The position numbers and the translations under genes were made by a program. The notes beneath the pieces were generated by a model. That model saw only the letters and a list, made by a program, of their open reading frames with translations, did not search any database and was not told the origin of the DNA. A stretch of 64,000 bases of DNA, from assembly GCF_000013405.1 (NCBI RefSeq), contig NC_007759.1, positions 1,737,001-1,801,000 on the forward strand, written 5' to 3'. Numbering within the stretch: position 1 is the stretch's first letter; each line of letters begins with the position of its first letter. Shown here one piece after another: positions 11,530 to 32,310 of this stretch. The DNA comes from Syntrophus aciditrophicus SB (GTDB lineage Bacteria; Desulfobacterota; Syntrophia; Syntrophales; Syntrophaceae).

Positions 11530-14500
11530 TGAAGAAGCCCTTCGAAATCATTTTCCTTGTCCTCCTCCTCGCGGTGTTCTCCCCTTGCCTGGAAACGGTC
11601 TACGCGGACGGATCGCAGAAAATCTGCGCGAAGGACCTGAACGGGGACGGCAACGTCGATTTCACGAGCGAGGTTGCCAACTGCGTGACCGTCCAAGGCA
11701 GCGATTTTTGTCCTCTGGGAGCGGTCAATTGCGGGCTGGGCGTGATGGATCCCCTGTGTCCCACCAACGGGACGGGCTGCCCCGGGGGGACGTACAATCC
11801 CACGCTGAACAGGTGCGAAAGACCGCAGATCGTGACCGGCTACAAGTGCCCGACGACAGGGACGACTTACGGGGACCAGGCCTCGTGCCAGAACGCCTGC
11901 ATCCAGACGGCCGTCTGCCAGACCGGGACGTATTCCGTCTCCGTCTCTCCGGACCAATCGAGCTCGTACTGGTTTTACAACGGTGCTTACCGGATGTTCT
12001 GCAGCGGAAACGGTCTTTACCTGTCGGCGAACCCGGGAGGAAGCAGCCGGAGCTGGACTCTTTCGGGCGCCTCCTGCTCCGGGGACGCGAACGGCGGTGA
12101 AAACGCTTTTATCACCTACCTCCAGGGAAGCGGCAACCAGCTTTACGTTTACGGCTGCGATGGGATGCAGGATCCGGAGTACGGCTCCTGGACGCCGGTC
12201 AATTGCGGCCGGCTTTTCGGCGTTCTCACGTTCGATCACGCAGTAGTGAGCGGATCAACGAGGGGCACGTCCTGCATACTCGACGACGCTTCGTATCTCT
12301 CTTTTCATGACCGGTGCGACTGGGCGACGTGGACGGGCATCGGGATATCGGGCGACTCCTATCAGAACTGTCCCCTCGGAAATTATCCCTGCAGCGGAGG
12401 GACCTGTTTGACCGGATCCGCCTGCACCGCCGTTAACGGCTGCCCGTCCGGCTACCAGCTTGTAAGCGGTATCTGCATCGCCCAGCCCCAAGGGGGCGTG
12501 GCCGTGACAGTCGACAGATCGACTCATCTGTGTGAAGCCCCCGTGACGAACAGCTGCACGGGAGACGGCTTTTCCTTCGACCCAACCGGCGACTCCTGCG
12601 TCAAGAATCCGGGTTGCGGCGAAGGCATGCTGGAAGGCGGCCTCGACCTCTGCATATTCAATATCGGGAGCGACCGGTGTCCGGCCGGCTTCGAATATAA
12701 CGCGGCATTCTCAGCCTGTACCAGGGACGCGGCCTGCCCGGGCGGCGGAATCCTCAACCGGTTGCGGGACATTTGCGAGACGGCAAATGTCTCGTCCTGT
12801 CCGGAAGGGACGGCCATGGACCCGGGATCGGGTAACTGCCTCGCGGACCCTTCCTGCCAGGTCGGAAATTTCGACGCGGACCTCGGTGAATGCGTCCTTT
12901 CGGCGGCGTCCCTCGCCCAGGCGGGATACGTCTTCAATCCCGGCCTTGATCGGTTCGAACGGCCGCCGTCCTGCCCCGACGGGAGCTCGTACTCGGATGC
13001 GGCGGATCTCTGCACGACTCCCGCCGGTCACGCGTGTCCTTCCCCCGGCGTTTACAACGCTTCATCGGGAAAATGCGAGGGCACGGGCGTACCGGTATGC
13101 CCGGCCGCGGGCATGACCTACGACGACGCGGCCGGAGCCTGTTACGCCCCCGCCGCCTGTCCCGGCGCCGGAGCGACCCTGAACGACGTGACGGACCTGT
13201 GCGAGGCGGCTTTCACGCCCGCGTGCGCGGGAGGATATTCATGGAACCCGGCAAGGTTGCTATGCGAGATGGATCCTTTCTGTTCCCCTGGGATGTACAA
13301 TCCCGCGAGAGACAGGTGCGAATCGGCCCCGTCCGGGACGTCCTGCCCGGCGTCTTATGCCTGGAACGGCTCGGCCGGTAAATGCCAGGCGTCGCCGTCC
13401 TGTTCCGCCGGCGCCTATAATCCCGTCACCGATCGGTGCGAACAGTCCGCGACGGCCAGCTACGCGTGTTCACTCGGAGGGAGTTATCCGAGCCTTCCCG
13501 CGTGTTCTTCCTCGTGCGCGCAATCGGCCGCCTGCAGCACCGTTACCCCGAACGTGACGCTGTCGGGACCGCAGGCCTGGTGTCAGCCCAGCCGCATCGT
13601 CTGTTCCGACGGCACTCTTACCTTCTATTGCAGCCAGGGCGGTTCCCTGTCTTACAACGTGACGGGCATGAACTGTTCATCGGACGTATCCCTTCCCAGC
13701 GGTTACTATATTTCCTACCTCGTGGGATCGGGACAGGGATTCACCATTTACGGATGTCAAAACGTGTACGATCCGGAATTCGGATACTACCCCAACGGGA
13801 TTTGCGACTTCACCGGTTACGTAAGCACGCAGGGCGTCAACGTCACGGGTTCGACTTATCCCGGCACGCCGGGTTACTGGAACGCCCTGGACGCCCTGGG
13901 CGTAAACACCTTTCCCGGCTACCCGAACGCGCTTTGGGGGCATGATTCAACGATCTGGACGCCCTGGTACCCCCTTTATTTCAACGGCATCCCTTACCAA
14001 GTCTGCCCTCTGGGTAATTATGCCTGCAGCGGGGGGTACTGCTCAGCACCGGGAGCCTGTTCCGGCCCCACCTATTCCTGCCCGGTCGGCTGGACCCTTT
14101 CCGGCTCCACCTGCTACCAGGCCGCAGGTTGCCCGGCGGGCGGGAGCCTGAACGGTACCTCCGAGAAATGCGAGGCGGCCGGCACGCCGACTTGTTCAAA
14201 CGGCACGTATGATCCTGCTAATGGGGTCTGCTACCAAGCCGTAACCTGTCCCAACGGCGGCAGCCTGAACGGTTCGGTCGATAAGTGCCAGCTCGCCCCC
14301 CCCAATTCCTGCCAAACCGGTTATACCCTGGATTCGGGAAGGGGCCTCTGCACTGCTCTTCCACAATGTGCGGCAGGGGCCTATCATTCCAGTCGCGACC
14401 GGTGCGAGCAGGCGTTCGCTACCGGCTGCGCCGCCGATTATACCTGGAACGGCGGCAGGGGCCTGTGCGAATCCAATCCCACGCACGACTGCCCCCTGTA

Positions 14501-15758
14501 CGGGTTTTCTTACAACCCGGCGATCGATCTCTGCTCGAAAGAAGTTCTCTGCCCGGGCGGCGGATATCTCAGCGGCGAAGCCGATCGTTGCGTTGTCCAG
14601 ATGTATTCGGGAACATGCCCCGCGGGGTTCGTCTACAACCCGTCGACTGATTCCTGCTTGCGCGATCCTTCCTGCTCGGCCGGCGTTTTGAATCCAACGA
14701 CCCGGAAATGCGTTGCACCTCCGGCCGACGGCTGCGCGAGCGGGTACGCTTACAATTCCGGTACCGGAACGTGCCAAATACCCCCGGTGTGCGAGACTGG
14801 AACATACGACGGCGGGATCGACAAATGCGCGGTTCCCGGTTCAACCCTCTGTCCGACCCAGTACACGTTCAATTCCCTTGAATCGCGGTGTGAGCGTCTT
14901 CCCTCCTGCAGTGACGGGGCGATGTATTTGGCCTCCATGGACCTCTGCATGAAGGACCCGGTCCGGCAGTGTCCCACTTCCGATTACACGTACCAGGCTT
15001 CCTCCAGGCAGTGCGTCGCACCTCCTGTCTGTTACGTGGGGAACTTCGATCCTGTCACGAATACGTGCGCGGGATCGTCCACGGGCTGTCCCCTCGGATC
15101 GCAATATGCCTGCCTTCCGAACCCGGCGACCGGGATTCTGCAGTGCTCCGATAACGCCTGTTTCAACCCGTCCGCCATGCCCACCCAAACGACCGGCGCG
15201 GACACGTCCTCCTATCACAACGACGGCACGGTGGACCCTTCGACCGGCGATTGCCAAGGCGCCTTGTACATATTCAACGGGAAGGGAAAAGAATGCAGAA
15301 CCGCCGGGATCAGCACGACCTTCTTCAACTGCTGCAATACCGATCCCGGAGGCTTTCTCTTCATCCAGAACACGTGCGGCTCCGGGGACGCGGAAACGGT
15401 GCAGGCGGTCGGCAAAGGGATGTGCCATTACATCGGGGATTATTGTCAGCAGAAATGGCCCCTCATCGGGTGTGTCCAGAGGGCGAACACTTACTGCTGT
15501 TTCAATTCCAAGCTCGGCAGGATCATCCATGAACAAGGGAGAGCGCAGCTCCAACAATTCGGCGCAAGCGGCGACTGGGGAGGCGCGGAGAACCCTAACT
15601 GCCGGGGCTTCACCCCGGAGGAATTCCAGATGCTCGATTTCTCCCGGATCGACCTCTCGGAGTACTTCGGAGACATCAAGGCGAAGGCGACATCGGAAGT
15701 GCAACAGGACATGCAGCGGCAGGTCTCGGATTTCTATGAAAAGGTTGAGCGGAAATGA
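11529..15758 (+). CDS. traN: TraN-like giant cysteine-repeat protein
   Basis: The start is ATG 11529 because it gives an ideal signal peptide (MKKPFEIIFLVLLLAVFSPC, cleavage near VYA-DG) and overlaps the previous stop. The frame stays open upstream only as an accident of the overlapping gene. The 1409-residue product has about 115 cysteines by my count. After residue 330 it consists largely of tandem units of about 20 residues (C..G..YN......C). Two long related segments of about 230 residues interrupt the array. The C-terminal about 140 residues are the conserved TraN core, including CCFNSKLGRIIHEQGRAQL. TraN sits in the outer membrane and stabilises mating pairs. F TraN is only about 600 residues. 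Confidence 0.85.
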   Translation: MKKPFEIIFLVLLLAVFSPCLETVYADGSQKICAKDLNGDGNVDFTSEVANCVTVQGSDFCPLGAVNCGLGVMDPLCPTNGTGCPGGTYNPTLNRCERPQIVTGYKCPTTGTTYGDQASCQNACIQTAVCQTGTYSVSVSPDQSSSYWFYNGAYRMFCSGNGLYLSANPGGSSRSWTLSGASCSGDANGGENAFITYLQGSGNQLYVYGCDGMQDPEYGSWTPVNCGRLFGVLTFDHAVVSGSTRGTSCILDDASYLSFHDRCDWATWTGIGISGDSYQNCPLGNYPCSGGTCLTGSACTAVNGCPSGYQLVSGICIAQPQGGVAVTVDRSTHLCEAPVTNSCTGDGFSFDPTGDSCVKNPGCGEGMLEGGLDLCIFNIGSDRCPAGFEYNAAFSACTRDAACPGGGILNRLRDICETANVSSCPEGTAMDPGSGNCLADPSCQVGNFDADLGECVLSAASLAQAGYVFNPGLDRFERPPSCPDGSSYSDAADLCTTPAGHACPSPGVYNASSGKCEGTGVPVCPAAGMTYDDAAGACYAPAACPGAGATLNDVTDLCEAAFTPACAGGYSWNPARLLCEMDPFCSPGMYNPARDRCESAPSGTSCPASYAWNGSAGKCQASPSCSAGAYNPVTDRCEQSATASYACSLGGSYPSLPACSSSCAQSAACSTVTPNVTLSGPQAWCQPSRIVCSDGTLTFYCSQGGSLSYNVTGMNCSSDVSLPSGYYISYLVGSGQGFTIYGCQNVYDPEFGYYPNGICDFTGYVSTQGVNVTGSTYPGTPGYWNALDALGVNTFPGYPNALWGHDSTIWTPWYPLYFNGIPYQVCPLGNYACSGGYCSAPGACSGPTYSCPVGWTLSGSTCYQAAGCPAGGSLNGTSEKCEAAGTPTCSNGTYDPANGVCYQAVTCPNGGSLNGSVDKCQLAPPNSCQTGYTLDSGRGLCTALPQCAAGAYHSSRDRCEQAFATGCAADYTWNGGRGLCESNPTHDCPLYGFSYNPAIDLCSKEVLCPGGGYLSGEADRCVVQMYSGTCPAGFVYNPSTDSCLRDPSCSAGVLNPTTRKCVAPPADGCASGYAYNSGTGTCQIPPVCETGTYDGGIDKCAVPGSTLCPTQYTFNSLESRCERLPSCSDGAMYLASMDLCMKDPVRQCPTSDYTYQASSRQCVAPPVCYVGNFDPVTNTCAGSSTGCPLGSQYACLPNPATGILQCSDNACFNPSAMPTQTTGADTSSYHNDGTVDPSTGDCQGALYIFNGKGKECRTAGISTTFFNCCNTDPGGFLFIQNTCGSGDAETVQAVGKGMCHYIGDYCQQKWPLIGCVQRANTYCCFNSKLGRIIHEQGRAQLQQFGASGDWGGAENPNCRGFTPEEFQMLDFSRIDLSEYFGDIKAKATSEVQQDMQRQVSDFYEKVERK

Positions 15759-15937
15759 GTTTATGCCCGCCGATCGATTCGCGGAATTACCCGCGCGAGA
15801 CCTGCATTGTTTGCAAGAAAACTTTCGGGCCTGGAGAGGGGAGATACCTGCGGCCGGAAGGCCTGGTATGCGTGGAATGCCACGACCGAAATGGACGTAT
15901 ACCCAAAGCGCGCGTACGACCGCGAGGGAGAAAATGA
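15755..15937 (+). CDS. Zinc-ribbon miniprotein in tra operon
   Basis: A 60-residue protein with two CxxC knuckles (C17/C20 and C39/C42, in ETCIVCKKTFGPGEG and GLVCVECHD) and a very basic tail (ARVRPRGRK). The spacing fits a four-cysteine zinc ribbon. It has no signal peptide, so it should be cytoplasmic. Both ends overlap neighbouring genes by 4 bp (ATGA with traN, ATGA with traW), so it is a genuine translated member of the operon and not chance. Function is unknown; binding nucleic acid is possible. Confidence 0.7.
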   Translation: MSLCPPIDSRNYPRETCIVCKKTFGPGEGRYLRPEGLVCVECHDRNGRIPKARVRPRGRK

Positions 15938-16569
15938 AAAAGGTCTTCATCCTGGCAGTCCTGTCCTCCTTGCTCCTGGCCCAAGCGGCGGTTTGCGCCG
16001 ATCTCGGCAATATTGGGGCGACTTATCCCGTCGTCGAGCGCGACGCACTCTCCGAAATCGAGGAGCGGGCAAAGGCGGTCGACTGGGGAAAGGCATTTGA
16101 CCCGAAAAGGACGCGCGAAAGAATTCAAAACTACCGACCCGAGGGGATGGAGGCCTTGCCGGCGGCGAAGAAGGACCGGGTCTTCCAGGTGGACGTGAGT
16201 TACACGCTCGATTTCGACATCCCCGACGGGAGGGGCGGGATCCTCTATCTTAGGGGCTTCAGTTTCAACCCCTTGGCCCATGTATTTCTTCCCAACATCC
16301 TCGTCGTGATCGACGGGGGTAACGAGAGACAGATCGAATGGTTCAAGGCGTCCTCCTACGCAAAAGACCATAGGGTCATGCTCCTCCTTTGCGGGGGACC
16401 GTATACCCGGGTCATGGAGAAGCTGAAGAGACCGGCGTTCTACGCGGACGCCAGAATCGTGAAAAGGTTTCAACTGAAGGCGGTCCCCGCCGTGATCGTT
16501 CAAAAGGGTACCGTCATGGAGGTGAGAGAATATGCCCTCGACGACAAGGGGCAAAAGAAGCGGAAGTAG
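15934..16569 (+). CDS. traW: TraW family periplasmic assembly protein
   Basis: The ATG at 15934 gives a 211-residue precursor with a signal peptide (VFILAVLSSLLLAQAAVCA-DL). TraW features: GNIGATYPVVERDALSEIEERAK after the signal, a conserved YTLDFDIPDGRGGILY-type segment, NPLAHVFLP, and a thioredoxin-like C-terminal part ending FQLKAVPAVIVQKG. TraW acts in pilus assembly with TraU and TrbC. The frame is open upstream through traN but that extension is non-coding. It overlaps traU by 38 bp. Confidence 0.92.
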   Translation: MKKVFILAVLSSLLLAQAAVCADLGNIGATYPVVERDALSEIEERAKAVDWGKAFDPKRTRERIQNYRPEGMEALPAAKKDRVFQVDVSYTLDFDIPDGRGGILYLRGFSFNPLAHVFLPNILVVIDGGNERQIEWFKASSYAKDHRVMLLLCGGPYTRVMEKLKRPAFYADARIVKRFQLKAVPAVIVQKGTVMEVREYALDDKGQKKRK

Positions 16570-17551
16570 GGACGTCGTGAAGGGGTTTTTCGTTCTCCTC
16601 ATTCTCTTTCACGCCGTTGGAGCACAGGCTGTATGCAGGTCCGGGATTCCGTTGAACCCGGTGACCGACCTCTGCTGGCAGTGCATATTCCCGGTGAGCA
16701 TCGCCGGGATCGAGATCATTCCCGGCCCGGTGGAAAACAACGTTCCGGACCTTTCGGGCATGCCCGTCTGCGCGTGTCCGGCGCCGCCCCCGCTCTTCAT
16801 CAGGATCGGCATCCCCGTCAGCTTCTGGGAACCGGCCAGGTACGTGGAAACAGTCAAGGATCCTTACTGCTTCCCGAGCCTGGGCTTCGGCCTCACCGCG
16901 GCGGGCGGCTTTCTCGGCGGGGGCTCGCAGGAGCAGGGGAACGCGAGTGTGGATACCTCCACCTTTGCCCAGGCGCATTACTTTATTTATCCCGTTTGGT
17001 CCATTATGGAGCTCCTTACCGATTTTGCCTGCATCGAGCACAGCGGTTTCGACGTTGCGTACCTCACGGAGGTGGACCCTCTCTGGCAGAATGACATCCT
17101 TGCCTTCATTCTGGAGCCGGAGTCGATCCTCTTCGGGAATCCCATCGCCCAGACGGCCTGCATCGCCGACAGCGTCTCGACCAACGCGGGTTTCTCCATG
17201 AGCCCCCTTTTCTGGTGCATCGGCTCGGGCGGGAGCGCCTACCCGCTCACGGGGCACGTGAACGACGACAACGAGCTCATGGCCAATTCCACGATCGCCG
17301 CCCGGATGGTTTACAAGTTGGCCAGGGAGGGGCTCGTCTGCGACACGGCCCTCAACCTGTGCGCCTGCGTCCCCACGCCCATCTGGGTGAAGCACAACTG
17401 GCGCATGCACGTCGCCAAGCCGGTGCGCGACTTCATGTGCCATCCCTTCGGGAGGACGGGGCTCATCTGGGGAGCGCTCAAGAACCCGCCGCTCGTAGGG
17501 GACAACTTCGTCTGGCAGCTCTTCAGGAGAAGGTCATGCTGCGCTTTCTGA
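16532..17551 (+). CDS. traU: TraU family conjugation protein
   Basis: A 339-residue secreted protein. ATG 16532 is preceded by a strong GGAGGTGA at good spacing. A GTG at 16577 is a possible alternative that would still keep the signal peptide (FFVLLILFHAVGAQA). TraU hallmarks: DLCWQCIFPVSIAGIEI, CACPAPPPLFIRIGIPVSFWEPAR, the YFIYPVWSIMELLTDFAC block and a late CACVPTPIWVKHNWRMH. The many cysteines need periplasmic disulfide enzymes. TraU is needed for DNA transfer and pilus assembly. Confidence 0.95.
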   Translation: MPSTTRGKRSGSRDVVKGFFVLLILFHAVGAQAVCRSGIPLNPVTDLCWQCIFPVSIAGIEIIPGPVENNVPDLSGMPVCACPAPPPLFIRIGIPVSFWEPARYVETVKDPYCFPSLGFGLTAAGGFLGGGSQEQGNASVDTSTFAQAHYFIYPVWSIMELLTDFACIEHSGFDVAYLTEVDPLWQNDILAFILEPESILFGNPIAQTACIADSVSTNAGFSMSPLFWCIGSGGSAYPLTGHVNDDNELMANSTIAARMVYKLAREGLVCDTALNLCACVPTPIWVKHNWRMHVAKPVRDFMCHPFGRTGLIWGALKNPPLVGDNFVWQLFRRRSCCAF

Positions 17552-18396
17552 TCAAGAAAGGAACCCGGATGGGACTACTGATCCTTTTCGCGTTTATGGG
17601 TTTCTTACATGCGTCCATTCCCGACTCTGGAGCGGATGACATGGAGGACATCAGCCGATTCATGGAGAACGCAGGCCGGATCGGCCGGAACATCGAGATC
17701 CCGGAGAATCTCCACAAGGCTCAGGGGCAGAAAGAAGCGGGAAAGCTGCTGGAATACTACCAGTCGGAGGCGTTCAAGAGGAAATACGAGGCGGAGATCG
17801 AGCGTCTCAAGGGAACGGTTTTCAAGGATACGATCGATTCCTATTACGGAGATTCCAACGGAGCGGAAAAAGACAGCGTCAAAGGGGGAACCCTCCCCGG
17901 AAACGAACGGATCTATCTTTTCATATCCTCATCCGTTCCCATCGGCACGCTAAGGAACTATGCGAGGGACCTGGATAGGCTTGGCGACCCGAACGTCTTC
18001 ATGGTGCTGCAGGGCTTCGTGGGCGGGATGAAGCGCGTGAAGCCCACGATGGATTTCGTGCGTAAGATCATCACCGAAGATGCGGACTGTGACATTCAAA
18101 AGAACAAATGCAGCGCTTACAAGGTCAAAGTCAAGATTGACCCCCTCCTCTTCCGAAAATACGGGATCACCCGGGTGCCTGCCGCCGTTTACGTGCCGGA
18201 CGTCCGGATCATGGATGTGACGTTGAGCGAGGGAATGGAAGGGAACGCGAAGACGGGCGATCATTATGTTCTCCACGGAGACGCTTCACTGGCATACATG
18301 CTGGAGACCCTGCGCAGGCCATCCGGGAGGCGCTCGATCGACCTCCTGATCGAGGCACTGAAAGGCGGAATTTACCACGAGGTGAACAAGAGATGA
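17536..18396 (+). CDS. trbC: TrbC (F-type) periplasmic protein
   Basis: The 286-residue protein starts at ATG 17536 inside the end of traU (16 bp overlap). A signal-like segment (MGLLILFAFMGFLHA) is followed by a helical region and then the TrbC thioredoxin-like fold: RIYLFISSSVPIGTLRNYARDL, VFMVLQGFVGGMK and FRKYGITRVPAAVY. In F-type systems TrbC works with TraW and TraU in pilus assembly. The stop overlaps trbI by 4 bp. Confidence 0.9.
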   Translation: MLRFLIKKGTRMGLLILFAFMGFLHASIPDSGADDMEDISRFMENAGRIGRNIEIPENLHKAQGQKEAGKLLEYYQSEAFKRKYEAEIERLKGTVFKDTIDSYYGDSNGAEKDSVKGGTLPGNERIYLFISSSVPIGTLRNYARDLDRLGDPNVFMVLQGFVGGMKRVKPTMDFVRKIITEDADCDIQKNKCSAYKVKVKIDPLLFRKYGITRVPAAVYVPDVRIMDVTLSEGMEGNAKTGDHYVLHGDASLAYMLETLRRPSGRRSIDLLIEALKGGIYHEVNKR

Positions 18397-18791
18397 AGGA
18401 AAGCATTGAGAAAGAAGAAATGATGGAGTCCAGCGCCGCTCAACCGGGAGAAATCCCCGCGGGTGCAGGGAAAACGAAACAGGAAGGCAAGGTGGGGCGG
18501 GTTCTTCCCTGCCGGCTGGTAACCGCCCTCCTGGTCCTCGGGATTTCGCTTGCGTCATCCGCGGCGTCGATTGTCATTTATGACAGGTACTTCGCGACGC
18601 GGATCGTCGCGGTCGACATCAAGGGATTTATCGCGGCCCAGAGGGATCTATTTGTCCAAGGAAAGATTGACGACGACCAGTTGAGGAAAAACATCGAGTC
18701 GCTGGAAAAAGCGATCGAAGGTATCCCCTCGAACGAGGTCGTGATCATGGGGGACGCCGTTGTCCGAAACGCGAAAACCATCAGGCCTTAG
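18393..18791 (+). CDS. trbI: TrbI-like inner-membrane protein (F-type)
   Basis: A 132-residue protein with an acidic cytoplasmic tail, one membrane span (about residues 44-62, VTALLVLGISLASSAASIV) and a short periplasmic region (VVAVDIKGFIAAQRDLFV, then a predicted helix). Size, topology and position next to trbC, traW and traU match F-type TrbI, which influences pilus retraction. Sequence similarity is moderate by eye. It overlaps the peptidase gene by 32 bp. Confidence 0.7.
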   Translation: MKESIEKEEMMESSAAQPGEIPAGAGKTKQEGKVGRVLPCRLVTALLVLGISLASSAASIVIYDRYFATRIVAVDIKGFIAAQRDLFVQGKIDDDQLRKNIESLEKAIEGIPSNEVVIMGDAVVRNAKTIRP

Positions 18792-19245
18792 GCTCATTCT
18801 CTTCATGGGAGCTCTCGCCGCGGCGGGGATGCTCATTCCCTCACGCTTCGCTGTGAGCATCACGCCTTCGACGGAACACAGGATCTTTTTTCTGAAAAAA
18901 GGGCCGCCCACGGGAGAACTGAAAAGAGGCGCTTACGTGATGTTTGATATCAGGTCGAAATACGTCGACCATGGGACGCCCCACCGGGTCATCAAGAGAA
19001 TTGCCTGCGCCGGGGGAGAGGAACTCGACACCGTCGGCCATGACTTTTACTGCGATGGAAGGGAAATCGCGGTGGCGAAGGATCTTTCCCTCAAGGGAGA
19101 GGAGCTTCCCCGGTTTCACTACAGCGGGAAGATCCCGGTGGACGCGGTGTTCGTCACGGGACAACACCGGGACAGCTTCGATTCGAGGTATTTCGGATTC
19201 GTGAGAAATGAGGAGGTGAAGGCCGTTGCCTGTCCGCTCTTCTGA
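18760..19245 (+). CDS. S26-family signal peptidase-like protein (TraF/TrhF type)
   Basis: A 161-residue protein. It starts with TTG at 18760, preceded by GGGGGA; an ATG at 18805 is possible. An N-terminal membrane anchor precedes the S26 serine motif (ITPSTEHRIFFLK, probable nucleophile S) and the lysine motif (HRVIKRIACAGGEEL). The segment VFVTGQHRDSFDSRYFGFV is the conserved box near the C-terminus. Such peptidases of SXT/R27/RP4-like systems mature the pilin. The pilin-like gene at 3413 has a long leader that would need removal. Confidence 0.88.
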   Translation: MSETRKPSGLRLILFMGALAAAGMLIPSRFAVSITPSTEHRIFFLKKGPPTGELKRGAYVMFDIRSKYVDHGTPHRVIKRIACAGGEELDTVGHDFYCDGREIAVAKDLSLKGEELPRFHYSGKIPVDAVFVTGQHRDSFDSRYFGFVRNEEVKAVACPLF

Positions 19246-20128
19246 GAAGAAATTGATGTTCCGGGTCCTGATCATTTGCCAGGTTGTCCTTCTTTTCACG
19301 ACGGGCACCCCTTGCGCCGGGGAACCGCCGTTCATGGAGGAAAACGGCAAGGCGTATTACGGGGACGCCAAGCGGGGCTGGTGGTGGTACGAGAAGATCC
19401 CCTTGGAGAAAAGGGACCGGGACGAGAAAGTCGAGGACGGTAAGAAGCGCTCTCCGCGCCTTTCGGACTACACAATGGAGGAACTCTGGAATATGTACCC
19501 CGACGATTTCCAGGCCGTCCTCATGGCCTTCCAGAAGAAGGCCGTCCAGGTCCCCTCGGAAAATAACGTGAGGGAATATTACGTGGTCCAGGACATCGCC
19601 CGGAGAAAGTCCCTCGCCTTCGCCAACGTGTCCGCGGCGGTCATGCAGAAATACCCGGACCTCTCCGTGGCGGCCGACTACCCGATCACGGCCCCGGGAA
19701 GAAACGCCGAGGTCTCGCAACGGACGGACGAGATCAAATCAAGGATCCGGAGCGCCCGGGAAGAATTCGCGCTCATCTATTTTTCCTCTGCGGGCTGCCC
19801 GTACTGTGCCGAGGAGGGTTCGATTCTCAGCCGTTTCGTCGAGAAGTACGGGTGGGAGATCCGGGAAATCGACATAGAAAGGGAGGCGGCGGTATCGTCC
19901 GTCTTCGGGATCGAGACGACTCCGACCCTTCTTCTCATTTATCGTGGGAGCGCCGACCATATCACCGTTTCGGCCGGAGTGGCATCCCTGGCCGAGCTCG
20001 AGGAAAAACTCTACCGGGGACTCCGGCTTTTGAAAAACGAGATCACCCCGGAGGAGTATTCTCTCTACGAGTTCCAGCGGGGCGGCGCCTTCGATGTGAA
20101 GGCTCCCTTGAGGCGGGACAAAAGATAA
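19226..20128 (+). CDS. traF: TraF thioredoxin-like conjugation protein
   Basis: A 300-residue precursor. The TTG at 19226 has a well-spaced GGAGG; an ATG at 19256 would also give the signal peptide (VLIICQVVLLFTTGTPCAG). The middle carries the TraF-type GWWWYEKIP and MYPDDFQAVLMAFQKKAVQ segments. The C-terminal thioredoxin fold has an active CPYC motif in YFSSAGCPYCAEEG and a cis-proline loop in TTPTLLLI. F TraF lacks the active cysteines, while this protein keeps a full CxxC, so it may be a working disulfide enzyme. It is part of the pilus assembly set with TraH. Confidence 0.92.
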   Translation: MPVRSSEKKLMFRVLIICQVVLLFTTGTPCAGEPPFMEENGKAYYGDAKRGWWWYEKIPLEKRDRDEKVEDGKKRSPRLSDYTMEELWNMYPDDFQAVLMAFQKKAVQVPSENNVREYYVVQDIARRKSLAFANVSAAVMQKYPDLSVAADYPITAPGRNAEVSQRTDEIKSRIRSAREEFALIYFSSAGCPYCAEEGSILSRFVEKYGWEIREIDIEREAAVSSVFGIETTPTLLLIYRGSADHITVSAGVASLAELEEKLYRGLRLLKNEITPEEYSLYEFQRGGAFDVKAPLRRDKR

Positions 20129-20144
20129 AAGCGAAGGTGTGGCT

Positions 20145-21605
20145 ATGAATAAAGGAATTATTCTCAAAAGCATCGTGGTCCTTGTAATTATTGCTCTCCT
20201 CCTGTCGCCCCTTGGCCCGGACGGGCCTATGGCTGGCTGGGTTGACGACTGGCTCCAGCAGAAAACGGAGACCTCCCCTGGGTACTTCGAGGGGCAGAAA
20301 AGGGGTTATTTCACCGGCGGGAGCTTCTCGGCGAGGTGGCAGCAGGGAAACGACTACCTCTTCACCGCCATGCCACCCAAGGTGAAGGCGGGCTGCGGCG
20401 GGATCGACGTCTTCCTGGGCGGGTTCTCCTATCTGAATTTCGAATACCTGGTAACCAAGCTCCAGCGGATCATGCAGGCCGCACCGGCGGCGGCCTTCGA
20501 CATCGCTTTGAACGTTCTCTGCGAGCCCTGCTCGAAGACGATCAAGTCCCTGGAAGCTATCACCAACACCCTGAACAACCTGCAGCTCGATGAGTGCAAG
20601 GCGGGCCGGGCGCTCGTGGCGACCATGGTGCCCCCGTCCCTCGCCGAAACGAAGGACAAACAGGCAAAGCTCGCCGGAATCCAGGGGGACTTCCTCCAGT
20701 CATCGGGCGTTAACGACCTCTGGAAGAGCATCAACGACCAGACAAGCGCAAACGCGAACAAGCCGGTCACGAACATGAAGCAGGCACTCGCGGGCTGTCC
20801 CCAGGACATCCGGGACGTCTTCGGGACCAGCGGGTCGGTCATCAACAACATCGCAGCCAAGACCGGCTTCAACAACCAGTCCTACCTCGACATGCTGAGA
20901 GGGTTCGTCGGTGACGTATACATCATCGACGCCGGGGACGCGGGTTTCCAGGTGGGTCACACGCCCCCCTGCGATCAAAACCGGTACGCCTCCTTCGACA
21001 ACCTCTTGGACGGAAGCGTCTACGCCCGGACGGCAGGAGGCGCCTGCGCACAAATTACCGACAGCTCGGCCGACCTCACGAATTACGTGCGGACGAAGAT
21101 GACCCGGATCGCGGGAAAGATCAAGGCGAAGCAGGCCCTCTCGGACGAGGACAACGCCTTCGTGAACGCTAGTCCCCTTTCCATCGGGCTCGTTCTCAAG
21201 GCGGCCGTGGGAACGAACCAGGAGTCATCCATCATCAGTACCCTCTCCGACGTGACCGCCAAGGCCTACGCCTTCCAGCTCCTCTCGGACCTCTACACGA
21301 AGGTCTGGAACATCATGGAAAAGGCGAGGAGCCTCGCCCAGGCTCAGCCGGGGGCCGTGCAGGGCGCGCAGGAATACCAGTGCAAGATCGAGATGCTCTC
21401 CGGTGCGATCGACGGCACGGCGGAGATGCAGGCCAGAATCGTGGAAATGGTAAGCGGAGTCCGGAGATCCTACGCCGCATCCGTCCAGGAGGTGATGGGG
21501 GTCTACAACCTGGTGGACAAGATGGAGAAATTCGACAGGCTGGCCCTGAGCATGCTGAGTTCGAAATTCGGAACGGCCGTCGCGGCCAGGTCATTGTCAC
21601 GCTGA
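20145..21605 (+). CDS. traH: TraH family pilus assembly protein
   Basis: A 486-residue secreted protein starting at ATG 20145 (a GTG two codons upstream is the alternative), with a hydrophobic N-terminus (SIVVLVIIALLLSPL). TraH features: YFEGQKRGYFTGGSFSARW, VKAGCGGIDVFLGGFSYLNF and LCEPCSKTIKSLEAITNTLN, plus IQGDFLQSSGVN. TraH is periplasmic and needed for pilus assembly. The cysteines fit the DsbC/TraF supply in the operon. traG follows 19 bp downstream. Confidence 0.95.
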   Translation: MNKGIILKSIVVLVIIALLLSPLGPDGPMAGWVDDWLQQKTETSPGYFEGQKRGYFTGGSFSARWQQGNDYLFTAMPPKVKAGCGGIDVFLGGFSYLNFEYLVTKLQRIMQAAPAAAFDIALNVLCEPCSKTIKSLEAITNTLNNLQLDECKAGRALVATMVPPSLAETKDKQAKLAGIQGDFLQSSGVNDLWKSINDQTSANANKPVTNMKQALAGCPQDIRDVFGTSGSVINNIAAKTGFNNQSYLDMLRGFVGDVYIIDAGDAGFQVGHTPPCDQNRYASFDNLLDGSVYARTAGGACAQITDSSADLTNYVRTKMTRIAGKIKAKQALSDEDNAFVNASPLSIGLVLKAAVGTNQESSIISTLSDVTAKAYAFQLLSDLYTKVWNIMEKARSLAQAQPGAVQGAQEYQCKIEMLSGAIDGTAEMQARIVEMVSGVRRSYAASVQEVMGVYNLVDKMEKFDRLALSMLSSKFGTAVAARSLSR

Positions 21606-21624
21606 ACGCTCGGAAAGAAATCTA

Positions 21625-24600
21625 ATGGGAATTTTTGGAAAGACAATTCTTATATTTGGCTTCACGGTCGTCATGTTGTCAGCTGCACCGGACGCCCATG
21701 CAGTGGACATGGAGTACTATACCTACAACGGCTTCGGAGCCGTCGTGACTGCCTTCCAGAAGATATCCCTGATCTTTTCGGATAACGGCTATCGGGCGCT
21801 CTTCTTCACCGTGACCGCCCTCGGGATCTTCATCGCCGGGGCTGCGGCGTACTTCCATCTCCTCAAGGGGGCAAGGTTTTCGCCCCTCTCATGGGCCTGG
21901 CCGGTGGGTCTCGGGATATGCCTCTATCTTGGGCTCATGGTACCCACGGGAAACATCACGATCTACGATCCTGTCCTCAACCGCTTCCAGACCGTCGGGC
22001 GGATCCCTGACGGCATCGTGGTCGTGGCCGGGACCCTGAACAAGATCGAACGGGGACTCGTGGATATCATCTCCACGTCGGGCACGCCCCAGAATTTCCA
22101 GGACTACGCCGGCGGCATAGGCTTCGACATGCTTTTGAAGGCATCCGGGGGGCACCTCAAAATCCGGGACCAGTACATCGATGAATCGCTGAAACGGTAC
22201 ACAAAGGACTGCCTGTTCTTCGAGCTGCAGCGGCCGGGGACGTCGTTGAGCGTAAACGACGTCACGAGTTCCAGCACGGACTTCATGAGCCAGTACGCCC
22301 AGGCAGCGAACCCGGCCGTCTTCACCGTCTGGTATTCGGAATCGGACCGAACCGGGACGACCATGTCCTGCGCGGATGCCTGGACCAACTTGCAAGGTTA
22401 CTTCAGCGATCCCCTCAACATGGGAGACACGATCCGCTTTGCCTGTGCGAACGCCGGCTTCAATGCGGACAACGCCGGTGAGCTCACGAAATGCACGGAG
22501 ATCATCTCGAACTACGCCTCCTACGTGGAGGGCGGCGCATTCACGATCCCGGCACCGAACTTCATGAGACAGGTCTACATGGCCGAAGTATTGAATGACA
22601 TGCTGCTCGACGCGAACCCCGATCTTGCCGTGAAGGGCCTGGCGTCGAGGAGCATCATGACCGGCGGGCTCGGCATGGGAATCGTGGCGAACGAGTGGCT
22701 TCCCGTGGCGAGGGCTGTAATCACGGCCGTGGCCATCGGTCTCATACCGATCCTCGTCATTTTCATTCCCACACCGCTCGCGGGAAAGGCCCTGGGACTC
22801 GTCGCGGGGATGTTCATCTGGCTCACGGCCTGGGGCGTGACCGACGCGATCACCCACGGGATCGCGACCGACTATGCCTACGGGGTCTTCGAGTACGTGA
22901 GGCAAAACGCCCTGGGCTTCGCGGCCGTCATGAACATGCCCGACGCGTCTCTCAAGGCCCTCAGCATGTTCGGCCTCATCAGGACCTCGGGCATCATGCT
23001 GGCCACGGTGATCACAGGGATGCTCGTCCGGTTCGGCGGGCATGCCTTGGCCATGATGGCGGGGACCATCTCCGGGACGGTCCAGTCCCAGGGGAGCCAG
23101 GCGGCCTCACAGGCGTCAACGCCGGAAGGGGGGGCGAGATCCATGGACTCGGCGAGAACGGCCATTCCCACCTGGTCGAACGCCAACCGCTGGAGCATCC
23201 AGGACTACTCAGACCTGGAGACGGCAAGACGCGTGGGCTCAACTGCCGGAATGATGAAGGTCCGCGACGAATTCGGGGCGGACCGGTTGGGCGGTATGCA
23301 CGGGGACGCGGCAGTGGGCGGCTTTCTCCCCCGCGCGGCGGCCGGGTCCGGAATGGTGGAAGTGGGCCTCGACCGGTCGCAAGGTCTTCTCAAGGCCGGA
23401 AACATCTCCAGGCTGGGAAAAACCGAGGGCGACCTCGAATCTTTCCGTGAGTCGGGCCATGCCGGGGACTTTTTCGACTACCATGCCGATCAGGCAGCCG
23501 TGGAGGGAAAGAAACGGTACTTCGCCGCCATGAAATACGACGAGGCGATGGAGGAGGCAGGCCGAGGAGACCGGATATCGGGCTACAGAGCCGTGGCCGA
23601 CTACGATGCCCACAAGACGGCGGGAGTGATCCGGGAGGGAGAGAAACACGGCGTTGAAGCGAAAGCGCTCGGAGAGACAAAGGGTCGGTTGGACGCGCTC
23701 CAGACCGTGGCCGCCTTCAGGGGGATCGAAGCCGTCGGCGAGGGCGCCTATCTTGACGCGAGGCGGGACGCCGTGATCGACGATGTCGCCAAGTGGGGAG
23801 CGCTCCGGTCCTTCGCCGAATCCAGAGGAGTGGATTTTGAACGTTTCGCGGCGGACCGGCACCGAACGGCCGATATCTCCGTGAACGCCGCTGAAGCAGA
23901 GCGGTACGGCCTCCCCGGGGCGGGGAGCTACCGCATGGCCTGGGGAGGGCATGGCGAACTGCTCTTCACCAACCGGTCCAGCGGAAGCCAGTATCAGGTC
24001 GGTACCTTCGGGAAGAGCGGGCGGGATATTGCGGGATACAATATATCCAGAAGCGAGGAAGGAAACCTCAGAAAGATATACAGCAATTTCACGGACCGGG
24101 TGGGAGGATCACACAGCGTCCGCTACGATGATTTCCGGGAAAGCGTCTCGGGGTTCCGGGGCAGAGGCTACAATGTGAGTATTGTCGAGGACGCATCGAT
24201 GGCGGGCGGCCATCGCGTGATGGTCTTCGACCCTTCACACAAAAAACCGGTACTCGTTTCCGGGAACATCAATCACCTCGTGAGTTCTTACCGGCAGACG
24301 GCAGACGGCGCCACTAAGGAAGCGATCGTCCCACTGACAGGAGACGTCCTCGCTTCTGAAAGCACGATCGGAAGTGTCCGGACGCAAAACCAGGACAGGC
24401 TGAACGTAAACATGGGTGTGAAGGCGGATGGAACTGTTACGGAAGGAGTGAGAAAAGTGGCGGGCGAAACGGTCGCGGTGGGCGCGGCTGCTTCCATGGA
24501 CGGACTGGCATCCATCGGGAGTACTGTAAGGAGCGTAAAACAACTGGGCGAACTCGGAAATAATTTCAAGTTGAACAGGACCAAGGGGGAGCCGACCCTT

Positions 24601-24663
24601 GAGGGTGGTGAAACAGCGAAGGGCGAGATATCTCCCGGCCCTGCAAGTGATCCCGTGCAATAA
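21625..24663 (+). CDS. traG: TraG mating-pair stabilisation protein
   Basis: A 1012-residue inner-membrane protein. A signal-like start precedes MEYYTYNGFGAVVTAFQKISLIFSD, the TraG N-terminal hallmark. Several membrane segments follow (about residues 55-75, 90-110, then 360-395 and 400-480). The C-terminal about 500 residues are periplasmic or cytoplasmic, polar and Gly/Ser/Asp-rich. F TraG N-terminus acts in pilus assembly and its C-terminus in mating-pair stabilisation and recognition of TraS. Entry exclusion specificity here would lie in the variable C-terminus. It is the last gene of the operon; no TraS-like gene is obvious. Confidence 0.9.
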   Translation: MGIFGKTILIFGFTVVMLSAAPDAHAVDMEYYTYNGFGAVVTAFQKISLIFSDNGYRALFFTVTALGIFIAGAAAYFHLLKGARFSPLSWAWPVGLGICLYLGLMVPTGNITIYDPVLNRFQTVGRIPDGIVVVAGTLNKIERGLVDIISTSGTPQNFQDYAGGIGFDMLLKASGGHLKIRDQYIDESLKRYTKDCLFFELQRPGTSLSVNDVTSSSTDFMSQYAQAANPAVFTVWYSESDRTGTTMSCADAWTNLQGYFSDPLNMGDTIRFACANAGFNADNAGELTKCTEIISNYASYVEGGAFTIPAPNFMRQVYMAEVLNDMLLDANPDLAVKGLASRSIMTGGLGMGIVANEWLPVARAVITAVAIGLIPILVIFIPTPLAGKALGLVAGMFIWLTAWGVTDAITHGIATDYAYGVFEYVRQNALGFAAVMNMPDASLKALSMFGLIRTSGIMLATVITGMLVRFGGHALAMMAGTISGTVQSQGSQAASQASTPEGGARSMDSARTAIPTWSNANRWSIQDYSDLETARRVGSTAGMMKVRDEFGADRLGGMHGDAAVGGFLPRAAAGSGMVEVGLDRSQGLLKAGNISRLGKTEGDLESFRESGHAGDFFDYHADQAAVEGKKRYFAAMKYDEAMEEAGRGDRISGYRAVADYDAHKTAGVIREGEKHGVEAKALGETKGRLDALQTVAAFRGIEAVGEGAYLDARRDAVIDDVAKWGALRSFAESRGVDFERFAADRHRTADISVNAAEAERYGLPGAGSYRMAWGGHGELLFTNRSSGSQYQVGTFGKSGRDIAGYNISRSEEGNLRKIYSNFTDRVGGSHSVRYDDFRESVSGFRGRGYNVSIVEDASMAGGHRVMVFDPSHKKPVLVSGNINHLVSSYRQTADGATKEAIVPLTGDVLASESTIGSVRTQNQDRLNVNMGVKADGTVTEGVRKVAGETVAVGAAASMDGLASIGSTVRSVKQLGELGNNFKLNRTKGEPTLEGGETAKGEISPGPASDPVQ

Positions 24664-25033: not shown

Positions 25034-25062
25034 TTGACCTTCGAACCATGTTTTATTATATT
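25034..25062 (+). promoter_or_regulatory. Candidate promoter of the first AbiE pair
   Basis: TTGACC (25034-25039), a 17-bp spacer and TATATT (25057-25062) form a good sigma-70-type promoter. Transcription would start around 25069, about 20 bases before the ATG at 25090. Confidence 0.55.
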
Positions 25063-25066
25063 TCTC

Positions 25067-25091
25067 ATAAATTGCGTGGCGGACAATTTAT
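25067..25091 (+). repeat. Inverted repeat over the abiEi start
   Basis: ATAAATTG (25067-25074) and CAATTTAT (25084-25091) are perfect 8-bp arms. The loop holds the GGCGGA ribosome site and the right arm covers the first two bases of the ATG. It could be an operator for AbiEi autoregulation or an RNA hairpin that hides the start. The position also supports ATG 25090 as the true start. Confidence 0.55.
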
Positions 25092-28404: not shown

Positions 28405-28815
28405 ATGAAAAAAGTCGTCGTCCTCTTTTCATTACTTTTCCTCTTTCCCGCGGGGCAACTCCATGCCTTCTGCTTCGAGGAGGCAGGCTCCATCTATAAC
28501 GTCTCCCCCCGACTTCTCTGGGCCATCGCCAGGGTGGAGAGCGGTTTTCGGCCCGGCGCTCTCAACCGCAACGCCGACGGCTCGTATGACTACGGACTCA
28601 TGCAGATCAATTCCTCATGGGCGCGGGTCGTAGGAAAGGAGCTTTGGTCCTCCCTGGGCGATCCGTGCACGAACGTGAAGGTCGGCGCCTGGATCCTCTC
28701 CGATTGCATCCGGAAACACGGCTACACATGGGAAGCTGTCGGAGCCTATAACGCCTCCCAGAAACACAAACGCGCCAGGTACGCCAGGAAGGTATACACG
28801 GCCCTGCGGAAATGA
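28405..28815 (+). CDS. Lytic transglycosylase (SLT family)
   Basis: A 136-residue precursor with a signal peptide (VVLFSLLFLFPAGQLHA). The SLT domain has the catalytic glutamate in WAIARVESGFRPGALN, then the family motif YDYGLMQINSSWA and VGAYNASQKHKRARYA. These enzymes open peptidoglycan for the transfer apparatus (VirB1, P19/Orf169 of F). Two cysteines in the mature protein may pair. A 4-bp ATGA overlap couples it to the next gene. Confidence 0.95.
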   Translation: MKKVVVLFSLLFLFPAGQLHAFCFEEAGSIYNVSPRLLWAIARVESGFRPGALNRNADGSYDYGLMQINSSWARVVGKELWSSLGDPCTNVKVGAWILSDCIRKHGYTWEAVGAYNASQKHKRARYARKVYTALRK

Positions 28816-29564
28816 ACCCCATGTTTGACGTTCGTGAACTCGCGGATATTTACGGCCTACCTGAAGAAACCGCGAAGGCGGAACTCCTGAAATCGCTCTC
28901 CAACTCGCTTTCCACTGTTTTCGGCGCCGAAATAGAAGTCCTGTCGAGCGAAGCAGGCGCCCTGGAAATTTACTCGTACCGGGACTCGTCCGGCGACCTC
29001 CAGGTCAGGAGCATTCCTCTTTCCAGCATCGGCAGGCACGCGATAAAAAGGATCCGGCGAGACCTCTCCCTGTCACTGGCCAAAATACGGGTCCTTCGCG
29101 ATTACGATCTCAGCCGGGACCTCGTCGGCCGCGTTGTCGAGGGCATGATTGTGAAGGCGGTAAATCACGGATCCCTGTCCATACGGCTGCAGGCGAACGG
29201 TTCCTGCAATCCCGGAAACCTGGTCGGCTCATGCCCTTACCGGTTCCAGACGCCGAAGGAACGGGGGACATATCGTCCCGGAGATGTCCTGTCGTTTCAA
29301 GTCCTGAAGGTGTCCCCCGTAATGGAAAACGGCATGCCCCGGCTCGAAATCACTCTGGGCAGGAACGGCAGGGGACTGGTCGAAGGCCTCATCATGAAGC
29401 GAGTTTGGGAAAACCCTTCATGCAGAGACGTGAAAGCCAGGTGTGTGAAGAGGATCGCTGGGGCTTACTCGGAAGTCGTCTCCACTGCGCCGGTTTCTCG
29501 TGATGCCATAAAGAGCGTTTCGGACGAATTGAAAGAGTACATCCGGGTGGTGAGGAAATCATGA
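28812..29564 (+). CDS. NusA-like RNA-binding protein (N-domain, S1, KH)
   Basis: A 250-residue soluble protein. The first 70 residues resemble the NusA N-domain (GLPEETAKAELLKSLSNSL, then EIEVLSSEAGALEIYSYRD). The next part is like NusA S1 (DLVGRVVEGMIVKAVNHG, YRPGDVLSFQVLKVSP, then RLEITLGRN). It ends with a stretch resembling the KH1 start (VKARCVKRIAGAYSEVVST). NusA controls RNA polymerase pausing and antitermination. No second KH domain or acidic repeats are present. It starts by a 4-bp overlap with the transglycosylase gene and overlaps traD by 4 bp. The assignment rests on alignment by eye and is the least certain of this operon. Confidence 0.55.
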   Translation: MNPMFDVRELADIYGLPEETAKAELLKSLSNSLSTVFGAEIEVLSSEAGALEIYSYRDSSGDLQVRSIPLSSIGRHAIKRIRRDLSLSLAKIRVLRDYDLSRDLVGRVVEGMIVKAVNHGSLSIRLQANGSCNPGNLVGSCPYRFQTPKERGTYRPGDVLSFQVLKVSPVMENGMPRLEITLGRNGRGLVEGLIMKRVWENPSCRDVKARCVKRIAGAYSEVVSTAPVSRDAIKSVSDELKEYIRVVRKS

Positions 29565-30922
29565 TTGCTCGGTTCCTCAAGAGTTCCTGCGGGAAGGGCG
29601 ACCGAAAAACTTCCCGAACGATTCTCGGCGTCGGACACGGGATGTCGGATCCAGACATGTCCATGCATATCGCCGTCTCCGATTCATCCCGGAAGGGGCA
29701 TTTCTGGTGTTTCGGAACCACCCGGGTGGGGAAGACCCGGATTATGGAGAACATGGTCGAGCAGGACATCCGCAAAGGTTACAGCGTCGTTGTCATCGAC
29801 CCAAAGGGGGATATCGATCTCTTCTCCAAGATCGTGCAGGTCGCCTTTGAGGAGGGCCGGGACCGTGAGCTCATCCTCGTCACGCCCATCTACCCGCACC
29901 TGAGCGCCGTGATAGATCCCCTGGCCTATTACTACATGCCGGAGGAGTTGGTGGGGCACATCGTCTCCGGGGTAGAGGTGGGGAAGGAGCGGTTCTTCTT
30001 CAACGTCGCCTATGAGATCAGTCTCGTGATCGTCCAGGCGCTCATCATGCTTGCCGCCTGGGAGGGGAAGGCCAAGAGCTTCAACCTAAACGACGTCAAG
30101 AACAAGATGTCGCGGGAGGAGCTCGAAAAGCTCAAGGGACAGATCGACTGCGTAGACACCGAGGAGGCGAAGCAGCTCTCCTCGGACATCCAGAAGATCC
30201 TGAACTCGCCTCAGGACTATTACGGGAAGGTTTCCTCGTCTCTCCGGGTCGCCCTGATGGAGCTCACGAGCGGGAACATCGGGAAGGTCGTGGGAAAGGC
30301 CGACGAGAACCGGTTCATCGACCGCCTGGAAAAGGGGAAGCCGGTAATCATGGTGGTCCACCTCGGCTCCCTGATCACTCGCAAGGCGGCGTTCACCCTG
30401 GGAAAGGTGGTCATCTCGATGGTCCAGAGCTTCGTTGGACGGGTCTTCTCGTCGGGAAGGCGGGTAACCCCACCACTTTGCCTTTACATCGACGAGTGTC
30501 AGAATGTCCTCTACTACGGGATCGAGGATCTCTTCGCCAAGGCTGGCGGCGCCGACGTGTGGGTCCACGGCTTCGCCCAATCCGTCTCCCAGCTCTACGC
30601 CATGATCGGAAAGGATTACGGGAACGCCATCCTCGACAACACCAACACCAAGCTCTTCATGCGGGTCCCTGACACGGATACGGCCTCGTACGTAGCCAAG
30701 CACTTCGGGGAGTTCCGGCGCTATTCCCCGATTCTCAACGTGGACGGCGGGGTGTCGGTCCGGGAAGAGGAGGACACGATCCTGAAGCCCTCCGACATTC
30801 TTGAACTCGCAGAGAGAGAGTTCTATCTCATGACTTATTCCGGCCTGTTCCGCGGGCGGAGTCTCGATGTCTCCACACTTTATCTGGAAATCAAGTTCCC
30901 AGACCTCACGGCTGAGTCATGA
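29561..30922 (+). CDS. traD: TraD-like coupling ATPase without N-terminal membrane domain
   Basis: A 453-residue ATPase. Walker A is GTTRVGKT at residues 52-59; the SVVVIDPKGDIDLFSKIV segment and Walker B (LYIDECQN) followed by WVHGFAQSVSQLYAMIG match the VirD4/TraD coupling family. Coupling proteins link the relaxosome to the transfer channel and pump DNA. Most have an N-terminal membrane domain and are 600-700 residues long. Here the ATP site starts 50 residues from the N-terminus and no membrane span is visible, so the membrane part may be supplied by another gene. It is coupled to the genes on both sides by ATGA overlaps. Confidence 0.85.
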   Translation: MIARFLKSSCGKGDRKTSRTILGVGHGMSDPDMSMHIAVSDSSRKGHFWCFGTTRVGKTRIMENMVEQDIRKGYSVVVIDPKGDIDLFSKIVQVAFEEGRDRELILVTPIYPHLSAVIDPLAYYYMPEELVGHIVSGVEVGKERFFFNVAYEISLVIVQALIMLAAWEGKAKSFNLNDVKNKMSREELEKLKGQIDCVDTEEAKQLSSDIQKILNSPQDYYGKVSSSLRVALMELTSGNIGKVVGKADENRFIDRLEKGKPVIMVVHLGSLITRKAAFTLGKVVISMVQSFVGRVFSSGRRVTPPLCLYIDECQNVLYYGIEDLFAKAGGADVWVHGFAQSVSQLYAMIGKDYGNAILDNTNTKLFMRVPDTDTASYVAKHFGEFRRYSPILNVDGGVSVREEEDTILKPSDILELAEREFYLMTYSGLFRGRSLDVSTLYLEIKFPDLTAES

Positions 30923-32310
30923 AAGCGATCACGACGATCCTTTTCATCCTCGCGGTCGGCTGCCTCGCGATTTATGCCATATGCATATACATTTCCGCCT
31001 TGTGTAAATCACGAAATCCCGGAATATCTTCCTTAAAGGAAAAACGGGAGATCGCCCTGGAGGGTCTTGCGGTGATCTGGACACAAAGGCAGAAGGAGGA
31101 ATCATCCCCCAAAAAAGACGAAGGCGAAGCAAGAAAAGAACCGGAAAAGAAACAGAGTGGAACTCATACGCCCGACACCGTCTCTTTCCGCGATCCGGAT
31201 TTGAACACATTTTACATCGAAAATGTACGCAATAAGGCTGGGTTCCCTCACGGGGCGAGACAGGTTGCCGAGGGTATCCTGGAGATCTTGGACAGGGAAG
31301 GAGATTGTCCCTCGGTTGTCAATACCCACGGGGAGATTGAGGCCAGCATGGAAATGGGCGCTTACAACCGCCTGGCCCGGGTCACCTTGCGCGAGCACGC
31401 CTTTGACACGGCCAGGGAGATGCTTTGCCTGATCGATCCCGGTCCGATGACGCCCATGGCAATCATCGCCGCCCTCGGCCATGACCTCGGAAAGATCCCC
31501 GCTTACAGGCAACATCTCTACTCCCTGGGGGACCATCCGGTCATCAGTGTTACCATCCTGGACAAGATCCCTGGATTCTCCGAGATGCCCAACAGGGGGG
31601 ATATCATCACGGCCATCCGGGACCATCACCGCAAGCCCATCGATTTCTTCTCGATCAAGCTCAAGGAGGCCGATCAGGAGGCAAGGAAAAAGGAACTCGC
31701 ACGAAACTTCTCCCTCGGAGATACCAGAACTGGCCGGGAATCAACCTCTCGGGAAGAAGAGCCGCCCAAACGGGCTGCTTCAGCCGGCAGAGAGACAATT
31801 TTCTGGGATGACGAGAACAAGACAGAAGGCAGAAAGAGAAAAGGGAAACCCAAGGAGGTCGAAATTCCCTGGTACAACGGAAAAGCTATCCTTCAGGAAA
31901 TCGCCGGACGCATCAACAAGGTTGATGAGGGTCGGTGGGAGGCCTTCTCTATGGTGAACGGGTACGTCTACATCCAGGTCGGCCTCCTGTGGTCGGTCGC
32001 CAAGAAGGTGGCACGGATGAATGGCGATCCATCCGTTTTGATCGCGGACACCGACGATGAGTTGAGAGCGAATATCCTCTACTCCATCGTGGAGCGGCTC
32101 AAGACGGAGGAGAACGCGATCGCGCGGGGGCTCATTCGCGACGGATACTTCAGCGCACCCTTCGTAGTCAGTATGCAGGACGGGACGGTCCATTCCAAGG
32201 CGTCATACGTGCCGTTCAACCTTGAAGCTTTCGGGATGCTCACCTCGGAACTGGAGTCTCAAAAATACGGCAAGGTAAGAGAAATCGTCGATGTCACGCC
32301 GAAGTGGTGA
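30919..32310 (+). CDS. Membrane-anchored HD-domain phosphohydrolase-like protein
   Basis: A 463-residue protein with one N-terminal membrane span (about residues 5-27), then a Lys/Glu-rich linker and an HD domain: REHAFDTAREM (H160), AALGHDLGKIP (H188, D189), DHPVIS (H206) and IRDHHRKP (H236/H237). A charged linker (about 245-325) and a C-terminal domain of about 140 residues follow. MOBH relaxases also contain an HD-type domain, but the MOBH histidine pattern upstream is not seen here. Its place after traD makes it a candidate for relaxosome or nucleotide signalling; the substrate is unknown. Confidence 0.7.
   Translation: MKAITTILFILAVGCLAIYAICIYISALCKSRNPGISSLKEKREIALEGLAVIWTQRQKEESSPKKDEGEARKEPEKKQSGTHTPDTVSFRDPDLNTFYIENVRNKAGFPHGARQVAEGILEILDREGDCPSVVNTHGEIEASMEMGAYNRLARVTLREHAFDTAREMLCLIDPGPMTPMAIIAALGHDLGKIPAYRQHLYSLGDHPVISVTILDKIPGFSEMPNRGDIITAIRDHHRKPIDFFSIKLKEADQEARKKELARNFSLGDTRTGRESTSREEEPPKRAASAGRETIFWDDENKTEGRKRKGKPKEVEIPWYNGKAILQEIAGRINKVDEGRWEAFSMVNGYVYIQVGLLWSVAKKVARMNGDPSVLIADTDDELRANILYSIVERLKTEENAIARGLIRDGYFSAPFVVSMQDGTVHSKASYVPFNLEAFGMLTSELESQKYGKVREIVDVTPKW

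Follow-up and report, generated by a model that had tools for sequence, protein, structure and literature searches.

A conserved, mobile NusA-family paralogue with a reduced KH1 domain is paired with the coupling protein TraD

The genome of Syntrophus aciditrophicus SB, a single contig of 3,179,300 bases, carries an F-type transfer region, which we analysed in a window of 64,000 nucleotides (NC_007759.1, positions 1,737,001 to 1,801,000). The upstream block of tra genes, recognised by profile matches (4588..24663, + strand), includes TraK (starting at 4588), TraB/TrbI (5432), TraC (7023), TraU (16532), TraF (19226), TraH (20139) and TraG (21625). On its 3' side lies a run of four genes, all on the + strand: a lytic transglycosylase with an SLT domain (28405..28815; Pfam SLT, 1.6e-23), a NusA-like gene (28812..29564), the coupling protein TraD (29561..30922; profile matches to TraG-D_C / TrwB_AAD / SXT_TraD-like families) and an HD-domain protein with a hydrophobic N-terminus (30919..32310; Pfam HD, 7e-6), which is a conserved partner. 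The NusA-like gene is defined by its open reading frame, NusA profile matches, an AlphaFold model and PDB matches, and the coordinates previously assigned to its 250-residue product proved exact. Between TraG and the transglycosylase-TraD run, a pair of genes resembling, by eye, an AbiEi/AbiEii toxin-antitoxin system is inserted (25048-26791); an HTH antitoxin-like ORF, likewise recognised by eye, lies at 27153-27539 (- strand), and a small zinc-ribbon protein related to a topoisomerase C-terminal repeat (Toprim_Crpt, 1.6e-8) is encoded at 27942-28289, just 5' of the transglycosylase.

The NusA-like gene overlaps the transglycosylase (stop at 28815) and TraD (start at 29561) by 4 bases each, and a preliminary description of the locus had proposed translational linkage on both sides. 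On the TraD side the overlap is firm: GAGG precedes the TraD ATG, and the arrangement recurs in relatives. On the transglycosylase side it hinges on the choice of start codon, as the two nearest relatives (L002/L068 and L005) have no ATG at the annotated start position and begin at the equivalent of Met4, here a possible alternative start at 28821, which would leave a gap of ~5 bases instead of an overlap. TraD itself seems to be devoid of the usual N-terminal transmembrane region, with Walker A as early as about residue 52; the hydrophobic N-terminus mentioned above belongs to its HD neighbour. The latter protein has invariant H160, HD188-189, H206, HH236-237 and D252 (alignment A7) and usually lies beside TraD. 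Because MOB-suite types no relaxase on most of the plasmids concerned, it is a candidate MOBH-like relaxase.

The product of 28812-29564 is a NusA-family protein, composed of an N-terminal domain (NTD), an S1 domain and a KH1 domain reduced by an internal deletion, without KH2. Only NCBIfam and family profiles expose this kinship, as Pfam alone found no match in the 250-residue protein and a phmmer search of the PDB with the single sequence gave no significant match. The protein on its own matches the NCBIfam NusA model with an E-value of 4.4e-6 over residues 61-222, and its score of 25.9 bits against a curated cut-off of 253.4 for TIGR01953 indicates that it is not a NusA orthologue. NusA is matched by each of the five members of an initial alignment and by 14 of the 19 in a larger one (best E 1.1e-15), and hhalign aligned the family with 15 chromosomal NusA sequences at 98.8% probability over 218 columns. 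The same comparison with NusG gave 5%, placing the family outside the NGN/KOW proteins (NusG/RfaH/ActX). When the 19-member profile was run against the PDB, 15 NusA sequences headed the list (best Mycobacterium tuberculosis NusA, 1k0r, E 3.8e-13), with only NusA among the clear relatives. A designed repeat protein, 8etq, had also been matched by a profile, with only ~6 bits per copy in the helical N-terminus; it is missing from the list of the larger profile and was discarded. A full-length match to a different family, sought in these profile and PDB comparisons, did not appear; NusA was found instead. The resemblance to NusA, previously assigned by eye, is confirmed and goes well past anything that chance would give.

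A nine-member profile run against the host phylum retrieved the short members first, followed by open frames of ~415-600 residues from about 60 genomes; the ones examined proved to be chromosomal NusA, their GACVG...G motif intact. The host encodes a full-length NusA elsewhere in its genome (420 bits), so the NusA-like gene is not the sole housekeeping copy, and a full NusA accompanies it in 8/8 carrier genomes checked (the host and seven others). No relatives were found in viral contigs or in PHROGs, and this is therefore not a known phage family. In a tree whose rooting is arbitrary and whose branches are long, every family member is placed on the same side of the NusA branch; for that reason, support for a single origin comes mainly from the shared KH1 deletion.

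An AlphaFold2 model built on 16 family sequences (pLDDT 89, pTM 0.80) agrees with the profile results: the top 15 Foldseek matches are all NusA, and NusA takes places 1-14 in a second structural comparison (Z 16.9 to 12.2). A predicted structure unlike NusA, which would have told against the assignment, was not obtained. Model residues 1-250 superpose on residues 1-277 of full-length NusA entries with a global rmsd of 4-9 Å, which we read as a probable difference in the angle between NTD and S1. The NTD and linker helix (residues 1-104; 28812..29123, +) comprise two helices, three strands and a long helix. They are followed by the S1 domain, an OB-fold of beta strands (residues 105-186; 29124..29369, +), and by the KH1-derived segment (residues 187-250; 29370..29561, +), which ends before KH2. 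Residues 109-261 of M. tuberculosis NusA (2asb), covering S1 and the KH1 remnant, match the model with an rmsd of 2.1 Å over 137 residues. Homology to the NusA superfamily, by sequence profile and by structure, thus extends across both NTD and S1, and domain order and fold equal those of bacterial NusA (TIGR01953; PDB 1k0r, 4mtn, 6flq) from the NTD through the linker helix and S1 to the start of KH1. The NTD is headless, as described for Mycobacterium and Planctomycete NusA (PMC4642336), the former also supplying the best sequence match, 1k0r. The call of N-domain, S1 and KH1 in the preliminary description is therefore upheld for the NTD, for S1 and for part of KH1, whereas the part of KH1 that holds the GXXG motif has been deleted.

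This deletion sets the family apart from bacterial NusA. The span from a conserved arginine of KH1 to a conserved glutamate of its last helix is 37 in 15/15 NusA sequences and 25 in 17/19 family members (24 and 27 in the remaining two), corresponding to a loss of 12 residues in the 17 and of 13 and 10 in the others. The deleted stretch holds a KH1 helix as well as the RNA-binding GXXG loop and is absent in essentially all members (GXXG in 0/19, against 15/15 NusA). The KH1 strands and flanking helices are retained in the model, in the order helix-strand-strand-helix-strand, one helix fewer than in a type II KH fold. KH2 is missing altogether, the protein ending at the position that corresponds to NusA residue 277. 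With both this domain and the GXXG loop lost, its mode of action must differ in some respect from that of NusA. Unlike the acidic NusA, the family is also mostly basic, besides scoring far below the NusA cut-off, being mobile and not being the housekeeping copy: pI is ~9-10.6 in 16 members and 6.0-8.7 in three head-bearing ones (see below), compared with ~5 for the corresponding part of NusA, and net charge is positive in S1 of most members and in the KH segment of all.

The loss of KH2 and GXXG might be taken as the mark of a remnant or non-functional nusA copy. We consider this hardly credible, as it is contradicted by conservation: purifying selection acts on the gene (dN/dS 0.24-0.32 against near relatives; 0.06 for TraD), and dozens of genomes have the frame intact, its length and its context being fixed. 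The S1 fold, the basic charge and the overlapping genes would also suit a post-transcriptional regulator whose S1 domain binds tra mRNA, such as the message of the overlapping transglycosylase, traD and HD genes, and controls how stable it is or how it is translated, without touching RNA polymerase. Such a role has no need of a NusA-type NTD, yet all members have kept one, and we regard it as distinctly unlikely.

The association with TraD holds well beyond this locus. In a sample of 395 genomes across the host phylum, a short NusA-like member occurs in 11 and a TraD of the matching kind in 16, with 11/11 carriers falling within the 16 (Fisher p 5e-18, shared ancestry ignored). Within the class of one carrier, 36/277 genomes are positive, with up to four copies each; 38/43 copies lie directly upstream of TraD, and 38/39 TraD genes of the carrier genomes are paired with a NusA-like gene. 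The gene is plasmid-borne in Pelobacter, Geobacter and Desulfosarcina, and plasmids of Nitrosophilus and of two species of Campylobacter (Campylobacterota) carry more diverged copies, which lie 0.8-1.4 kb upstream of TraD. In 14/20 loci the two genes overlap, and their pairwise distances are correlated (r 0.79 over 20 loci). No recognisable substitute was seen where TraD occurs without the NusA-like gene in G183, G296, G336 and G372, two of these lying near contig ends. A 238-residue gene upstream of TraD in Aliarcobacter was considered and set aside, as its product resembles a membrane protein and does not belong to the family. On Campylobacterota and Thermovibrio plasmids (L093, L094, L097), genes for GGDEF (diguanylate cyclase), EAL and HD phosphohydrolase proteins adjoin TraD, hinting at cyclic-di-nucleotide control of transfer.

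This is, then, a conserved and mobile NusA-family paralogue with a crippled KH1 that is tied to TraD. The recurrence of the gene pair in numerous mobile elements of two phyla suggests that these elements carry an undescribed transcription-elongation (or RNA/DNA-binding) factor of their own. Strict pairing of this kind leaves room for a role in DNA transfer, in which the NusA scaffold would be reused as a basic RNA/ssDNA-binding adaptor, an accessory of the coupling protein or relaxosome that acts on the transferred strand together with TraD and the HD protein, its NTD binding TraD or another partner in place of RNA polymerase. The direct upstream position, the overlaps and correlated distances, the lost GXXG and the high pI all fit such an accessory. 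Correlated trees, however, arise from co-inheritance on one element alone, and the Campylobacterota plasmids, Desulfosarcina and one antisense case have the gene away from the TraD start. Also hard to reconcile with a DNA adaptor is that a NusG-like gene can fill the same slot, and on balance we find the accessory role, although the main rival to the reading favoured below, rather unlikely.

The slot replacement is seen in a single lineage, in G500, G547 and G561 (L105-L107), where a related TraD has no NusA-like gene at that place and a NusG/RfaH/UpxY-like ORF overlaps the TraD start instead; a similar ORF is found at L099:7975-8385 (- strand). Both kinds of gene thus share a slot in front of TraD genes that belong to one family and whose start they overlap; the ORF, being of NGN-KOW type, is unrelated to NusA. 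By hhalign the G500-type ORF has 93.7% probability to NusG versus 1.3% to NusA; this identity rests on profiles, as its AlphaFold model is poor (pLDDT 55) and the Foldseek matches, led by NusG/RfaH, are not significant. The host genome also encodes, besides its main NusG, a second, diverged NusG paralogue at G000:C1:2392475-2392969 (TIGR00922, E 1e-18).

Most copies of the NusA-like gene are headless and linked to TraD. A second form (L016, L059, L064/L104 and L069), most members of which keep a longer, head-like stretch in the NTD, scores better against NusA (2e-14 for L059) and has the same KH1 shortening (L104 being outside that count). Within the retrieved stretches, a small gene resembling sigma-70 region 2, each a sub-threshold match, lies near 3/4 head-bearing copies (L016:21706-22272, -; L069:7579-8148, +; L059:2586-3116, -), and one of the three is an annotated sigma factor. 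Together, the NusG-like replacement and the sigma-like neighbours point to element-encoded transcription machinery. With a NusG/RfaH-like gene in the same slot and sigma-like genes near the more NusA-like subgroup, antitermination is better supported by context than action on transferred nucleic acid.

The most likely role, which we infer from sequence and context and to which we give about even odds, is that of a specialised factor, encoded by the element, for transcription elongation or antitermination on the transfer genes. Homology to NusA along almost the entire protein, the positive charge of S1 and of the KH segment, and the presence of a full NusA in the same genomes speak for it. Its NTD would dock on the beta-flap tip of RNA polymerase, replacing or competing with host NusA, and the linker helix would place the basic S1 and degenerate KH1 over the nascent transcript, so that polymerase on the transfer genes would become resistant to termination or pausing. 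As GXXG and KH2 are gone, the KH-KH grip of NusA on RNA should be missing, and the factor would depend on S1 and basic surfaces or act through displacement of host NusA. Residues L27, L31, I43 and V45 of the E. coli NusA NTD, which are affected by RNA polymerase binding (PMC4642336), align gap-free to L25, L29, I41 and V43 of the NusA-like protein; almost all of the 19 members have a hydrophobic residue at positions 25 and 29. This conservation is compatible with polymerase binding through the NTD, although it is weak evidence, since the same positions are also core positions. The E. coli NTD alone enhances pausing (PMC4642336), which makes the direction of any effect on elongation uncertain.

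Some observations speak against antitermination, among them the loss of the KH1 GXXG loop and of KH2. The NusA-like gene adjoins TraD and is not first in a long operon, where antiterminators are usually found, and it tracks TraD phylogeny closely, as a protein partner of TraD would. The region has no excess of terminator-like sites (23 found, 21 expected from shuffles), so internal terminators provide no argument in its favour. The truncated architecture would also suit a host-directed antagonist, a shortened NusA that occupies the beta-flap and weakens host termination or transcription generally, not specifically on tra genes; LoaP, which antiterminates by antagonising NusA (PMC12691694), is a precedent. 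We hold this to be very unlikely, as the gene sits within the transfer operon beside TraD and not among early establishment genes.

Many specialised paralogues of NusG serve to release long operons from termination. Like ActX, RfaH, UpxY and LoaP (PMC12691694, PMC13250579), the family described here is a paralogue of a universal elongation factor tied to particular operons; unlike them, it derives from duplication of NusA and not of NusG. Of these, ActX, an RfaH paralogue on conjugative plasmids, has been reported as an activator of conjugation in IncX plasmids (PMC13250579). Gram-positive conjugation operons carry bipartite antitermination systems (PMC8955417), which are similar to the role proposed here in that antitermination of conjugation genes is encoded by the element, whereas the NusA-like family occurs in other phyla. 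A literature search, which missed most subscription journals, found no NusA paralogue or NusA-like protein in conjugation, and no mobile family of NusA paralogues comparable to this one is known to us.

With a likelihood that we put a little short of even, these genes constitute a dedicated NusA-paralogue elongation/antitermination family for conjugation, evolutionarily interchangeable with a NusG-like factor in the same slot, which may tie tra transcription to the DNA-export motor. If the protein does modify RNA polymerase, it would be a minimal natural NusA, without GXXG and KH2, with which to separate the roles of NTD and S1 from those of the KH domains, and would offer a handle on how anaerobes express F-type transfer regions. 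Should DNA be its target instead, the protein would represent a NusA scaffold recruited to conjugation.
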